From Ghiorsea bivora (GTDB taxonomy: Bacteria; Pseudomonadota; Zetaproteobacteria; Mariprofundales; Mariprofundaceae): 64,000 bases of DNA. Location: the NCBI RefSeq assembly GCF_000744415.1, contig NZ_JQLW01000006.1:248001-312000 (forward strand). The letters are read 5' to 3'. Made by a program: the position numbers and the translations under genes. Below the pieces are notes generated by a model. The model made no database searches. It was not told the DNA's origin and saw only the letters and a list, made by a program, of their open reading frames with translations. Shown one piece after another: positions 11,727 through 58,936 of this stretch. Positions within the stretch are counted from its first letter, which is position 1. Each line of letters starts with the position of its first letter.

Positions 11727-13103
11727 ATGAACAAAAATGTCGAACTCTTATCCCCCGCAGGCACAATTAAAAATATGCGCTATGCTTTTGCTTATGGCGC
11801 GGATGCTGTATATGCAGGGCAGCCGCGTTATTCCCTTCGCGTTCGCAATAATGATTTCCAGTTGGAAAACTTAAAAACAGGCATTGATGAAGCCCATGCG
11901 TTGGGTAAGAAGTTCTTTGTTGCTAGCAACTTATTACCGCACAACAATAAACTCAAACGTTACTTACAACATATGGAACCCATCATTGAGATGAGGCCAG
12001 ATGCTTTGATTATGGCAGACCCTGGGTTAATTAGTATGGTACGCGAAAAATGGCCTGAAATGCCTATTCATTTATCTGTACAAGCTAACACCATGAATCA
12101 TGCTGCTGTAAAATTCTGGAAGTCGGTAGGTGTAAGCCGTGTGATTTTATCACGTGAATTGGGCTTGGATGAAATTGAAGAAATTCGCCAAGAATGTCCT
12201 GATATGGAATTGGAAGTATTTGTGCATGGCGCATTGTGTATGGCGTATTCTGGGCGCTGTTTATTATCGGGTTATTTTAACCACCGCGATGCCAACCAAG
12301 GATCGTGCACCAATGCCTGTCGTTGGAAATATGGCATGAAAGAAGGCAAAGAAGATGTCAGTGGCGATGTGATAAAAATGTCAGACCTCAATGATATAAT
12401 GAACCCACAACCCTTTACCCCCACACCTTCAAGCTGTGGTGATTTACCACGCCACCCCATGGCGGATGAAGTCTATCTTTTAGAAGAAGAAGGTCGCCCC
12501 GGTGAAGAGATTCCTATCTTTGAAGATGAACATGGCACCTATATCATGAATTCTAAAGATTTAAGGGCAGTCGAACATGTAGAACGCTTGGTTAAGATTG
12601 GTGTGGATTCATTAAAAATCGAAGGGCGTACCAAATCACATTATTATGTCGCACGCACTGCCCAACTCTATCGTCAAGCCATTGATGATGCAGTAACAGG
12701 CCGTGAGTTTGATTGGACCCTTATGCGCAAGCTGGATTCATTGGCTAACCGTGGTTATACCGATGGTTTCTTACAACGTCGTCATACCGCAGCCCATCAA
12801 AACTATGAAAAAGGTTCATCAACTTGGGATTATCAACGTTTTGTCGGTGAGATTATCGATTATGATAAAGAAACAGGTTTGGCTGAAATTGATGTGAAAA
12901 ATAAATTTGGTGTGGGTGACTCTGTAGAAATGATTTGTGCCAACGGCAACCAAACATTTACCATCGAATCCATGGTTAAAGCCAAAGATGACTCTGCAAT
13001 GGATTTGGCCCCCGGAAGCGGGCATATCGTGCGTATCCCCGTGCCAACAGAACCATCCAAAGTCGCCTTGATTGCTAAAAATATTAATCCTAAAAATCTA
13101 TAG
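11727..13103 (+). CDS. trhP: U32 family protein TrhP (tRNA hydroxylation)
   Basis: Matches E. coli YegQ/TrhP, which works with prephenate in 5-hydroxylation of uridine-34 in tRNA. The U32 signature is complete: VHGALCMAYSGRCLLSGYF then RDANQGSC and CRW (about residues 164-195). The N-terminus LLSPAGTIKNMRYAFAYGADAVYAG is typical, as are the IEGRTKSHYY segment and a C-terminal beta-barrel-like domain. I prefer the ATG at 11727 because GGAAAA lies just ahead; the ATG at 11715 is an alternative. It follows the palindromic repeat and is not clearly in an operon. Confidence 0.93.
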   Translation: MNKNVELLSPAGTIKNMRYAFAYGADAVYAGQPRYSLRVRNNDFQLENLKTGIDEAHALGKKFFVASNLLPHNNKLKRYLQHMEPIIEMRPDALIMADPGLISMVREKWPEMPIHLSVQANTMNHAAVKFWKSVGVSRVILSRELGLDEIEEIRQECPDMELEVFVHGALCMAYSGRCLLSGYFNHRDANQGSCTNACRWKYGMKEGKEDVSGDVIKMSDLNDIMNPQPFTPTPSSCGDLPRHPMADEVYLLEEEGRPGEEIPIFEDEHGTYIMNSKDLRAVEHVERLVKIGVDSLKIEGRTKSHYYVARTAQLYRQAIDDAVTGREFDWTLMRKLDSLANRGYTDGFLQRRHTAAHQNYEKGSSTWDYQRFVGEIIDYDKETGLAEIDVKNKFGVGDSVEMICANGNQTFTIESMVKAKDDSAMDLAPGSGHIVRIPVPTEPSKVALIAKNINPKNL

Positions 13104-55549: not shown

Positions 55550-56731
55550 ATGAATATCCAAGAAGCAAACCAATATTTAGCCCCCAATTATGGACGGTTC
55601 CCCATCACGCTTGTCAAAGGTCAAGGCGCTCGCCTTTGGGATGATACAGGCAAGTCATATTTGGATTTTGTCGCGGGCATTGCAGTCAACACCTTAGGTC
55701 ATGCGCACCCAGCCATGATTAAAACCATAAGCAAGCAGGCTGCCACCATGTTGCATTGCTCCAATTTATATTTTAATCCCCAACAAAATGAACTGGCGAA
55801 ACAGCTGGTTGAGCTTTCAGGCTTAGATAAAGTGTTTTTCTGCAATTCAGGTGCAGAAGCCAATGAAGCAGCCATTAAAATTGTGCGCAAATATTTCCAT
55901 GACCAAGGCAAACAGAAATATACCATTATCACGGCAACCCAATCTTTTCATGGCAGAACCATGCAAACCATTGCTGCTACAGGGCAAGACAAGGTCAAAG
56001 AAGGTTTTGCTCCGCTACCTATTGGTTTTAAACATGTTCCGCTCAATGATTTTGAAACACTTGAACAAGCCATCGATAACCATACAGCGGCAATTATGCT
56101 TGAACCTTTACAAGGTGAAGGTGGTGTCAACAATGTCTGCCCGCATTATTTGGCAGACGTAAGAAAGCTTTGTGATCAACACGATATACTGCTTATCTTT
56201 GATGAAATCCAAACAGGTATTGCTCGGTGTGGGGCCATGTTTGCTTTTGAATTGGCAGGTGTTTCCCCCGATATACTCACTCTTGCCAAAGGTTTGGGCG
56301 GCGGTGTACCCATTGGTGCAATGCTTGCCTGCAAAAAGGTCGCACCATCATTATCTGCAGGCTCACACGGCACCACATTTGGTGGTAATCCTATGTCTTG
56401 TGCAGCTGCACTCACCGTATTGCAGGTATTAGAACAAGAAAACATCTTGGAAAACGTCAACCAAAGAAGCAAACAACTCCAAGCTGGGTTACAAAAACTG
56501 GTGGATACTTACCCATTTTTTAGCGAAGTGCGTGGTCATGGTCTACTCTTAGGGCTTGCTTGTGAGAAAGAAGTGATGCCTATCATTCATGCTTGTCGTG
56601 AACATGGTTTATTGGTGTTAGCGGCAGGACCACATGTCTTGCGTTTTTTACCTGCACTGAATATCACAGAAGCTGAAATTGAAGAAGGCTTAACGCTATT
56701 AAACAAAAGTATAGAAGGTTTAGATTTATGA
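55550..56731 (+). CDS. argD: acetylornithine aminotransferase
   Basis: PLP enzyme of arginine synthesis, converting N-acetylglutamate semialdehyde to N-acetylornithine. The 393-aa protein has [34 protein letters not shown] (about residue 105), [29 protein letters not shown] and the PLP lysine in [15 protein letters not shown] (about residue 250), then [15 protein letters not shown]. Its end overlaps argF by 4 bases (ATGA), giving an argD-argF pair. Confidence 0.95.
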
Positions 56732-57651
56732 GCAATATCAGACATTTTTTAACATTGTTGGACATTTCACCCAGTGAAGCCAATGGGATTTTAGCGCGTG
56801 GCATCGAACTCAAAGCCAAACAAAAAGCTGGCGAAGCTCACCCCACCCTTGCAGGAAAAGCATTAGCCATGATTTTTGACAAAGCATCCACCCGTACCCG
56901 TGTCTCATTTGAAACAGGCATGTTTCAATTGGGTGGTCATGCCTTGTTTTTACATTCAGGCACAACCCAACTTGGCAGAGGCGAACCTGTAGAAGATTCT
57001 GCACGCGTCATTTCCAGCATGGTGGATATGGTGATGATTCGCACCTTTGACCACGCCATGGTCGAAAAGTTTGCCGAATATTCATCCGTACCTGTCATCA
57101 ATGCGTTAACCGACCTAACCCACCCCTGCCAAATTCTCGCTGATGTGATGACGTTTGTAGAACATCGCGGCGCAATCAAGGGTAAAACCGTGGCATGGAT
57201 TGGCGATGGCAACAATATGGCGCACTCTTGGATGAATGGCGCTGTCACCTTTGATTTCACGCTGAATATTGCTTCACCCGATGGTTATACCGTGGATGAA
57301 AGTTTATTAGCAAACGCAAGAGCCAAGGGCGCAAAAATTAACCTTTGCAGCAGCCCACAAGAAGCCGTAAATAATGCCGATTTGGTCACTACTGATGTCT
57401 GGGCATCCATGGGGCAAGAAGAAGAACAAAAAATCCGTGAAGCAGCCTTTAAAGATTATCAAGTGGACACCACATTGATGAGCAACGCCAATAGCGATGC
57501 TTTGTTTATGCACTGCCTGCCAGCACATCGGGGCGAAGAAGTCGCTGCTGATGTGATTGATGGCAAACAATCTGTAGTGTGGGATGAAGCAGAAAACCGC
57601 CTACATGCGCAAAAAGCATTGATGGAATTTTTGATGGATGCGGCTTCCTAA
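56728..57651 (+). CDS. argF: ornithine carbamoyltransferase
   Basis: Forms citrulline from ornithine and carbamoyl phosphate. The 307-aa length is standard. Signatures: [16 protein letters not shown] (carbamoyl phosphate site, about residue 55), [16 protein letters not shown] (HPCQ, about residue 130), [25 protein letters not shown] and [11 protein letters not shown] (about residue 265). It starts as a 4-base overlap with argD and has no hairpin terminator of note just downstream. Confidence 0.96.
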
Positions 57652-58043
57652 ATTTACCACAGTACCCGCAAGGGGCAGGCTTCTTGCCTTCGGCAATTCA
57701 TCACAGGACGCAGAGAAACACAGAGATTTTAAACCACGAAGAACACAAAGAGTATGAAGCTTTAGTGTGACTATCACCCCTTTGTTAAACTGCGCCGAAG
57801 TCTTGCTGTTGAAAAAGGGATAAGCGAAAAAACTTTTCGCCCCGCTTCAACTGCATAGCGAAGGAAGCGAGCAGCTTATAAAGGGCAGCTTTTTGGTTCG
57901 TTTTTGGCTGTACAAAAATGAACAAGAAACCACCTACTTTTCAACAGTCGATGCCCTCCATCCCCTGCAAACCGAATTGGGAACAATACAAACGACGTAA
58001 CCTTACAGGTTGCACACTGTAACCAATAAGGTTACCATAGCGT
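57652..58043. other. intergenic region with dispersed repeat sequence and HigBA operator
   Basis: This 392-base stretch holds ACCACGAAGAACACAAAGA (57733-57751), kin to the CACCACGAAGAACACGAA motif upstream of lpdA and pdhC. Further on is a GGTTCGTTTTTGGC-type stretch paired with AATGAACAAGAAACC that looks like a widespread repeat or transposon scar. The right end (57997-58035) is the HigBA operator. No gene is supported. Confidence 0.55.
57997..58035 (+). promoter_or_regulatory. HigBA operator: four half-sites at 11-bp spacing
   Basis: GTAACC (57997), GGTTGC (58008), GTAACC (58019) and GGTTAC (58030) alternate in orientation, each starting exactly 11 bases after the previous one. The outer pair extends to a perfect 9-bp inverted repeat (GTAACCTTA/TAAGGTTAC). 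The array ends 8 bases before the higB start. This is the expected form of a cooperative operator for the HigA repressor. Confidence 0.72.
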
Positions 58044-58322
58044 ATGATTCTTGATTTCATCCATAAAGGTTTGGAAAAGTTTTATCGTACGGGAAGCAAG
58101 GCTGGTATTCAAACCAAACATGCTGAAAAGTTGCGCCGAATACTTTCCAATCTTGATGTAGCAAGCTGCTCTGATGACTTGGATTTACCCAGTTACCGCT
58201 TGCATGAGCTTAAGGGCTCTCGCAAAGGTGTTTGGTCGATTACGGTTCAAGCCAACTGGCGTGTCACCTTTCGTTTTGTGGGTGAAGATATTGAGTTGAT
58301 AAATTATGAGGATTACCATTAA
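58044..58322 (+). CDS. higB: HigB-type toxin (RelE superfamily)
   Basis: A 92-aa ribosome-dependent mRNA-interferase-like toxin. The family markers are an early GLEKFYRTGSKAGI helix, LHELKGSRKGVWSITV and a closing ANWRVTFRFVGEDIELINYEDYH with the basic and aromatic residues that form the active site of HigB/RelE proteins. Toxin-first order and the downstream antitoxin (12 bases later) fit the HigBA type. A palindromic operator lies immediately upstream. Confidence 0.92.
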   Translation: MILDFIHKGLEKFYRTGSKAGIQTKHAEKLRRILSNLDVASCSDDLDLPSYRLHELKGSRKGVWSITVQANWRVTFRFVGEDIELINYEDYH

Positions 58323-58334
58323 CGGAGGTATGCC

Positions 58335-58628
58335 ATGCATATGTTTAACCCTGTTCACCCTGGTGAAATTCTTCGCCATGATATTTTAGAGCCAATGGGC
58401 GTAAGCATTGTAGATGCTGCCAAGTCATTGGATATAAGCCGCAAAACCTTGTCCAAAATATGCAATGGTAATGGTGCTATCACGCCTGAAATGGCTGTGC
58501 GCCTTGAGCTGGCGTTTGGTAAACCTTCTGCGCAACATTGGCTCAAGCTACAAACCGCCTACGACCTCAATCTTGTCAATCAGAAGCGACAAGAGTTACA
58601 ACGACATATTCACCCGCTTGCAGCTTGA
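58335..58628 (+). CDS. higA: HigA-type antitoxin
   Basis: A 97-aa XRE-family DNA-binding antitoxin with the signature HPGEILRHDILEPMGVS and the helix-turn-helix DAAKSLDISRKTLSKICNG (about residues 28-46), then PEMAVRLELAFGKPSAQHWLKLQTAYDL, the standard HigA C-terminal part. A strong ribosome-binding site (GGAGGT) precedes the ATG. It would neutralise HigB and repress the operon from the upstream four-part operator. The stop overlaps the TTG of the next gene. Confidence 0.93.
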   Translation: MHMFNPVHPGEILRHDILEPMGVSIVDAAKSLDISRKTLSKICNGNGAITPEMAVRLELAFGKPSAQHWLKLQTAYDLNLVNQKRQELQRHIHPLAA

Positions 58629-58936
58629 AACATACGCCTGCTGACTTGCTTCCAGAAGTGTTTGAAACACTCTTGGATAATGAACATCTCAAAATCGAAC
58701 GTATTATTTCTAAAGGTCATACATCACCTGAATCAGGATGGTATGACCAAGCCCAACATGAATGGGTTATTCTGCTTGAAGGCGCTGCTACCATTACTTT
58801 TGATAATGGAAAAGAATCCAACCTAAGAAAGGGTGATTATCTCAATATTCCAGCACACGTAAAACACAAAGTGTCATGGACTGACCCTGATGTGGAAAGC
58901 ATTTGGTTGGCTGTGTTTTATGGGGATATTCAATGA
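58625..58936 (+). CDS. cupin-domain protein
   Basis: A single-domain cupin of about 103 aa. The metal-site pattern is visible as QHEWVILLEGAATITFDNG (first motif, with histidine and glutamate) and KGDYLNIPAHVKHKV (second motif). A metal-dependent enzyme or sensor role is possible, but the substrate is unknown. The start is taken as the TTG that overlaps the higA stop (TTGA); the upstream frame is open within higA and lacks a ribosome-binding site. Translational coupling to higA is likely, though no toxin-antitoxin role is implied. Confidence 0.72.
   Translation: MKHTPADLLPEVFETLLDNEHLKIERIISKGHTSPESGWYDQAQHEWVILLEGAATITFDNGKESNLRKGDYLNIPAHVKHKVSWTDPDVESIWLAVFYGDIQ

Follow-up and report, generated by a model that had tools for sequence, protein, structure and literature searches.

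Two 17-bp palindromes in tandem upstream of higBA in Ghiorsea bivora: a doubled operator layout that is predicted to double as the promoter

In a 64,000-nucleotide stretch of the Ghiorsea bivora genome (GCF_000744415.1, contig NZ_JQLW01000006.1, positions 248,001 to 312,000; hereafter the window), two adjoining genes are preceded by a 39-bp element in which four related hexamers alternate in orientation. The element raises the question of how a repressor would read it and how it relates to the promoter of the genes that follow. The initial annotation had described a HigBA operator with four half-sites at one-turn spacing, placed on one face of the helix and repressed cooperatively by several HigA dimers. 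The designation as a HigBA operator is supported by the family assignments of the adjoining genes. In a family profile search the first gene product matched PF05015 with 75.4 bits (cut-off 27), while its score against NCBIfam RelE_StbE fell below the cut-off (24.3 vs 27.9). Its closest solved chains are HigB proteins (4mct, E 4e-23; 4mcx, E 7.8e-23), and its C-terminal NYEDYH, presumably catalytic, is identical in 4mct. The second product matched TIGR02607 with 105.1 bits (cut-off 47.7) as well as PF01381, and its closest solved chains are HigA and XRE-family regulators, including the XRE regulator 6f8s (E 9.4e-14); we take 6f8s and 6f8h to be GraA. The toxin gene comes first and the antitoxin gene second, on the same strand and 12 bp apart. 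A HigA-family antitoxin, a HigB/RelE-like toxin, this gene order and closeness, and an inverted repeat at the predicted promoter together identify a genuine HigBA type II toxin–antitoxin system as judged by its genes, with putative toxin and antitoxin activities. The features of the locus are collected in Table 1.

Table 1. Features of the higBA locus, in coordinates of the window
Feature	Coordinates	Strand	Basis
Half-site GTAACC	57997–58002	+	read from sequence
Half-site GGTTGC	58008–58013	+	read from sequence
Half-site GTAACC	58019–58024	+	read from sequence
Half-site GGTTAC	58030–58035	+	read from sequence
Distal palindrome GTAACC-TTACA-GGTTGC, presumed HigA site	57997–58013	+	sequence; comparison with doubled operators
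Proximal palindrome GTAACC-AATAA-GGTTAC, presumed HigA site	58019–58035	+	sequence; relatives
Predicted −35 TTGCAC, inside distal right half-site	58010–58015	+	inferred by comparison; weak by consensus
Predicted −10 TACCAT, overlapping proximal right half-site	58033–58038	+	comparison of final T
higB, RelE-like toxin, 92 aa	58044–58322	+	PF05015, E 4.9e-21; solved HigB chains
GGAGG, Shine-Dalgarno of higA	58324–58328	+	sequence
higA, HigA-family HTH antitoxin, 97 aa	58335–58628	+	TIGR02607; PF01381; solved chains

About 390 bp separate higB from the gene upstream (56728–57651), which we take to resemble ornithine carbamoyltransferase, and a frame with a cupin domain (PF07883; 58538–58936), likewise on the + strand, overlaps higA at its end. 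The distribution of HigA is patchy: matches at E 1e-20 or better occur in only three out of 16 genomes for the genus and nine out of 74 for the family.

Direct reading of the window confirmed that the alternating half-sites start at exact 11-bp steps (11, 11, 11). The dyads of the two palindromes that they form, at 58005 and 58027, are 22 bp or 2.1 turns apart. At the B-DNA pitch of 10.5 bp per turn each 11-bp step drifts by about 17 degrees, so the proposed common face holds roughly and not exactly. Repeat searches picked up the element in two guises: two 15-nt direct repeats (73% alike) at a distance of 22 bp, and an 18-nt inverted repeat (83%). The N5 loops of the two copies differ, TTACA in the distal and AATAA in the proximal one, which argues against a fresh duplication.

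The doubled site is not a product of chance. GTAACCN5GGTTAC occurs exactly once in the window and in none of 100 shuffles, and exact GTAACCN5GGTTRC occurs in the 2,154,483-bp genome only at the two sites of the window. When the gap between the palindromes was allowed to vary from 1 to 9, first-order Markov resampling of the upstream region (2000 draws) reached 18 of 24 letters at most, against 23 in the real sequence. Matches to the palindrome with up to three mismatches mean little, being near chance level (25 in the window vs 16.5 expected, with five of 100 shuffles reaching 25). An element that is only a promoter, its palindromes arising by coincidence, is therefore a highly implausible reading: the distal right half would pass for an ordinary −35, but the resampling result, the absence of the exact site elsewhere in the genome and the recurrence of the doubled element at remote HigBA loci, described below, all argue against it.

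Relatives show which part of the element is the operator unit. Upstream regions of higB were gathered by HigA similarity (80 loci from genome contigs, 14 from viral contigs, others from further genomes and four plasmids, with an additional 32 viral-contig loci from a second HigA query), and further loci were collected by operator pattern rather than protein similarity. Removal of copies left 148 distinct upstreams: 140 found by similarity, seven found by pattern, and the window. At a single-site threshold of three mismatches in 12, which admits some chance matches, 61 of these have one site, eight are doubled at 22 bp, four carry two interleaved sites shifted by 7 bp and 75 have none; of the 73 upstreams in which a site was recognised, 61 thus have the single form. 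A start codon was available for 57 single-site upstreams, and in 40 of them the site stops 8–11 nt short of it. Among these 40 aligned sequences TACAAT or TACACT spans the right edge of the site in 28, the last base of the −10, outside the palindrome, is T in 39, and a TTGACA-like hexamer (at least four of six) lies 16–18 bp before the −10 in 32; the 5–8 nt from −10 to start codon in the singles follow from selecting sites at this distance. The common recognised form, as far as sequence can tell, has a single palindrome between the two promoter elements, biting into the predicted −10. The single-site relatives retain the orientation GTAACC-N5-GGTTAC, and no trace of a second site at offset −22 was seen in them (0/43). 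The recognition-helix segments are alike in the HigA rows compared (SRKTLS, SRKHVS, TRKHVS and SRKHLS, with SRKALS in locus L164). The proximal palindrome of the window is the copy at the position occupied by the site in these relatives. As the single-site relatives keep one palindrome, the description as four independent half-sites was dropped in favour of two 17-bp palindromes, and comparison with the relatives indicates that the 17-bp palindrome is the operator unit.

Two relatives depart from this picture in other ways. In one of the same genus (L101, which shows the same stretch as L006), whose HigA is 76% identical, GTAACC-N5-GGTTAC is retained upstream of higA, but no higB was detected, and its position is taken by a frame of about 68 residues whose tail is hydrophobic; a partner swap behind a conserved operator is possible. 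A Pfam match of the 68-residue partner in L101 lay below cut-off and was rejected. In the nearest HigB relative (L102, 89%) higB seems to start with ATA rather than ATG at the conserved position, which appears to be a weak start or a sequence error.

Eight doubled operators came to light besides that of the window, in two HigA lineages other than its own; seven have the 22-bp spacing and one has 23 bp. Among the 140 upstreams fetched by similarity only one, from a Desulfobia MAG (L038), is doubled, and the doubled operator is a rare form among HigBA operators; six of the eight doubled upstreams of the survey, together with the 23-bp case (L220), were fetched because of their matching operator pattern. 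Of 13 loci matched by a pattern scan in viral contigs, one lies at higBA (L173), where GTAACC/GGTTGC/GTAACC/GGTTAC recurs letter for letter in the same register next to a HigA 48% identical to that of the window. Scans allowing up to three mismatches matched one of 369 genomes of one class (L182) and five of 57 genomes of the order to which L182 belongs, all five at higB, with no match by reversed-pattern controls in either set. When the gap was left free from 1 to 9 and the right halves were written as GGTTRC, four of the 57 genomes of this order matched, all with gap 5 and with GGTTGC followed by GGTTAC. The gap-free scan of a phylum sample matched two of 398 genomes, the window, which was the only higBA match, and G089, where no HigBA was found at the locus. 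As each gap-free scan (the 57-genome order and the 398-genome sample) also gave one reversed-control match, single matches of this looser pattern mean little alone. The G089 locus itself consists of a 12-bp satellite, GTTACCTGGTCG, in head-to-tail repeats that mimic the operator pattern.

When this viral scan was taken together with a wider one, three of 127 pattern loci among the matches listed had HigBA similarity (L173, L220 and L266). The L266 match, of 19 bp, lies far from its higB and was discarded. L220, from the wider scan, has the four hexamers of the window with a gap of 6 and a register of 23. On this viral contig the HigBA module seems to have become part of a longer operon (11984–12787) that its own operator heads: two small genes, the first at about 12054, come directly after the operator, and higB is third, at 12582, about 560 bp from the doubled operator. 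Its HigB is 74% identical to that of L182 over 68 residues.

A lack of conservation in the spacing would have counted against the reading of the initial annotation. The spacing is 22 bp in eight of the nine doubled operators and 23 bp in L220, a register that is nearly conserved, though not absolutely fixed, wherever the doubled site was found, and this objection therefore does not arise. Five of the eight doubled operators come from one order, and the independent cases are accordingly put at about three from the sequences. On a HigA tree built without L220, with few columns and many forks unresolved, the doubled label needs at least three changes (the window, L038, and L173 together with the L182 group), which could alternatively be one gain and two losses.

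The half-sites of the doubled operators are not equally constrained. The fourth is GGTTAC in all eight doubled operators of the survey and in L220. The distal right half is GGTTGC in seven of the eight (AGTTGC in the other) and in L220, as against one of 61 single sites. The third is the loosest, being GTAACC in three of eight and degenerate in five. The patterns used for the 369-genome and 57-genome scans contained GGTTGC, but patterns neutral for GGTTAC or GGTTGC gave the same result (L173, L182, L297, L298, L300 and L220). All nine doubled operators can be read as −35 TTGCNN, a 17–18-bp spacer and −10 TACNNT, with a spacer of 18 and TACAAT in L220. GGTTGC is therefore best explained, at the level of sequence, as a HigA half-site that doubles as the predicted −35: the half over the −35 must keep TTG and the half over the −10 must keep TA, which would account for the deviation. 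The spacer, TTGC and TAC follow from the register and the half-sites and are not separate promoter evidence; the promoter signs independent of the palindromes are the final T of the −10, present in all eight doubled operators, and the nearness of the start codon. By eye, the promoter of the window is weak by consensus (TTGCAC three of six, TACCAT four of six), and a scan of 57640–58720 for sigma-70-like promoters at a threshold of nine of 12 found none. That L220 has an 18-bp spacer at 23 bp suggests that the distance between the palindromes follows promoter spacing (17–18) more than helical phase alone.

The position of the predicted −10 bears on how higB may be translated. The higB start codon lies 5 nt after it, and the usual distance from −10 to transcription start is about 7 nt. 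Transcription is therefore predicted, from the −10 position alone, to start close to 58044, at about the higB start codon, and the higB mRNA may be leaderless or nearly so. The anti-Shine-Dalgarno duplex scores −10.8 before higA and −4.0 before higB, the latter stemming from AAGGT of the palindrome. At least four Shine-Dalgarno-matching bases precede higB in 31 of the 57 singles and higA in 50 of 57, counts that are confounded by the palindrome since its AAGGT scores as a match. The L220 operator is followed first by a gene other than higB, and that gene has a leader.

Might only one of the palindromes work, a single HigA dimer repressing as in most site-bearing relatives and the other copy being a remnant or a weak accessory? 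The predominance of single sites speaks for this, as does locus L103 of the same genus, where the 22-bp register persists with weaker copies and the proximal left half is lost; L103 was not counted as doubled, nor was L040, a sister of L038 that has the 22-bp register but weaker copies, misses the threshold and is without a good −10. Proteus vulgaris HigBA, whose HigB (4mcx) is among the solved chains closest to that of the window, reportedly has two operators, O1 and O2. In the account given of its structure, a single HigA dimer occupies a single inverted repeat (PMC6987408), which differs from the arrangement predicted here. The single operator described for Vibrio cholerae HigBA2 is likewise an N5 inverted repeat, TGTACGC-N5-GCGTACA, which starts behind the −35 and reaches over the −10, although its half-site sequence is another and a disordered region of HigA2 adds affinity (PMC11006873). 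A remnant would drift, however, and the distal copy keeps its place and its GTTGC in about three HigA lineages; nor do the differing N5 loops fit a fresh duplication. We therefore regard function of one palindrome alone as unlikely, and favour occupation of both.

A second alternative is that the dimers sit on opposite faces, each making one specific and one loose contact, with the inner inverted pair GGTTGC-N5-GTAACC as the core. The nearest solved relatives of HigA include 6f8s and 6f8h (GraA), and interleaved operators do exist in the family (four of 148). Another appears in L164, from the Pelobacter propionicus plasmid pPRO2, where a perfect 24-bp palindrome upstream of higB, GTACCC-TGTAACGTTACA-GGGTAC, can be read as two N5 units shifted by 7 bp in the GraA manner, though it was not counted by the 7-bp test. 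For Pseudomonas putida GraA and P. aeruginosa HigA, two dimers are described that bind one operator cooperatively from opposite sides (PMC6393540, PMC6987408). These operators share with the window an HTH antitoxin of the HigA family and two dimers per operator (predicted for the window). They are built around a TAACGTTA-type palindrome at the centre, the distal contacts being loose, where the window has two complete and distinct palindromes at a distance of 22 bp, on roughly the same face. The window has neither the TAACGTTA-like core nor the shift of about 7 bp that define the GraA type, its shift being 22 bp, whereas four other loci pass the 7-bp test, and the single-site relatives retain the orientation GTAACC-N5-GGTTAC. 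An opposite-face arrangement of this kind is thus quite improbable here.

Other systems share elements of the predicted arrangement with two full palindromes. HigA1 of the Mycobacterium tuberculosis HigB1-HigA1 (TAC) system binds a palindromic motif over the −35 element, but one motif is reported and the system is tripartite with a chaperone (PMC3968373). The XRE antitoxin of Escherichia coli HipBA acts cooperatively at four operator sites, TATCC-N8-GGATA (PMC3376134), and differs from the window in antitoxin–toxin family and half-site. The paaR2-paaA2-parE2 locus of E. coli O157:H7 has four equally spaced palindromes at its promoters and offers a precedent for leaderless translation of the first gene of a toxin–antitoxin locus; it forms a CI-like circuit, however, and the leaderless gene encodes the regulator, not the toxin (PMC8630535). 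On the effect of the toxin, P. vulgaris HigA is stated to lose affinity upon toxin binding in a review (PMC7167474) and not to be inhibited by HigB in the GraT paper (PMC6393540). A survey of literature listings did not bring the doubled HigBA geometry or a leaderless higB to notice, and we do not claim that either is absent from print.

With sequence, protein families, recurrence, register and half-site pattern as the observed basis, we infer HigA binding, promoter, start site and cooperativity as follows. The 39-bp element would be the autoregulatory operator of higBA and simultaneously its promoter. Each GTAACC-N5-GGTTRC palindrome would take one HigA dimer, the distal copy over the −35 and the proximal copy biting into the −10, with the dyads on roughly one face. 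Two HigA (or HigBA) dimers would then exclude RNA polymerase and repress higBA, and occupancy of one palindrome would probably help to fill the other. Both the register and the GGTTGC variant would be set by the need to fit TTGC-17/18-TACNNT within both sites. Transcription would begin at about the higB start codon, with higB read leaderless or near-leaderless and higA translated via GGAGG. We consider this reading as a whole likely. Of the multi-dimer repression originally proposed, two dimers on about one face remain the natural interpretation, while the usual unit is single and the overlap with the promoter had been missed. Cooperativity fits the layout but does not follow directly from a shared face, since the two structurally solved cooperative relatives use opposite faces. 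More tentatively, and as a reading that is less likely than not, the doubled sites may represent a distinct operator class of about three origins, its spacing dictated by the distance from −35 to −10, which in the window would be combined with a leaderless toxin message whose low translation, relative to the Shine-Dalgarno-led antitoxin, helps to maintain an excess of antitoxin.

The kind of operator described here is ordinary, a well-known self-regulating switch; the doubled layout is a real, new variant of the HigBA operator. One antitoxin family shows the same half-site in three geometries: single, two interleaved, and two in tandem on about one face. With the repressor much the same, these geometries offer a way to study the influence of operator layout on cooperativity and toxin leakage. 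The GGTTGC half-site lets the competing demands of repressor and RNA polymerase be read, and a leaderless toxin gene ahead of a Shine-Dalgarno-led antitoxin gene, if true, would solve in a simple way the problem posed by the toxin-first gene order.
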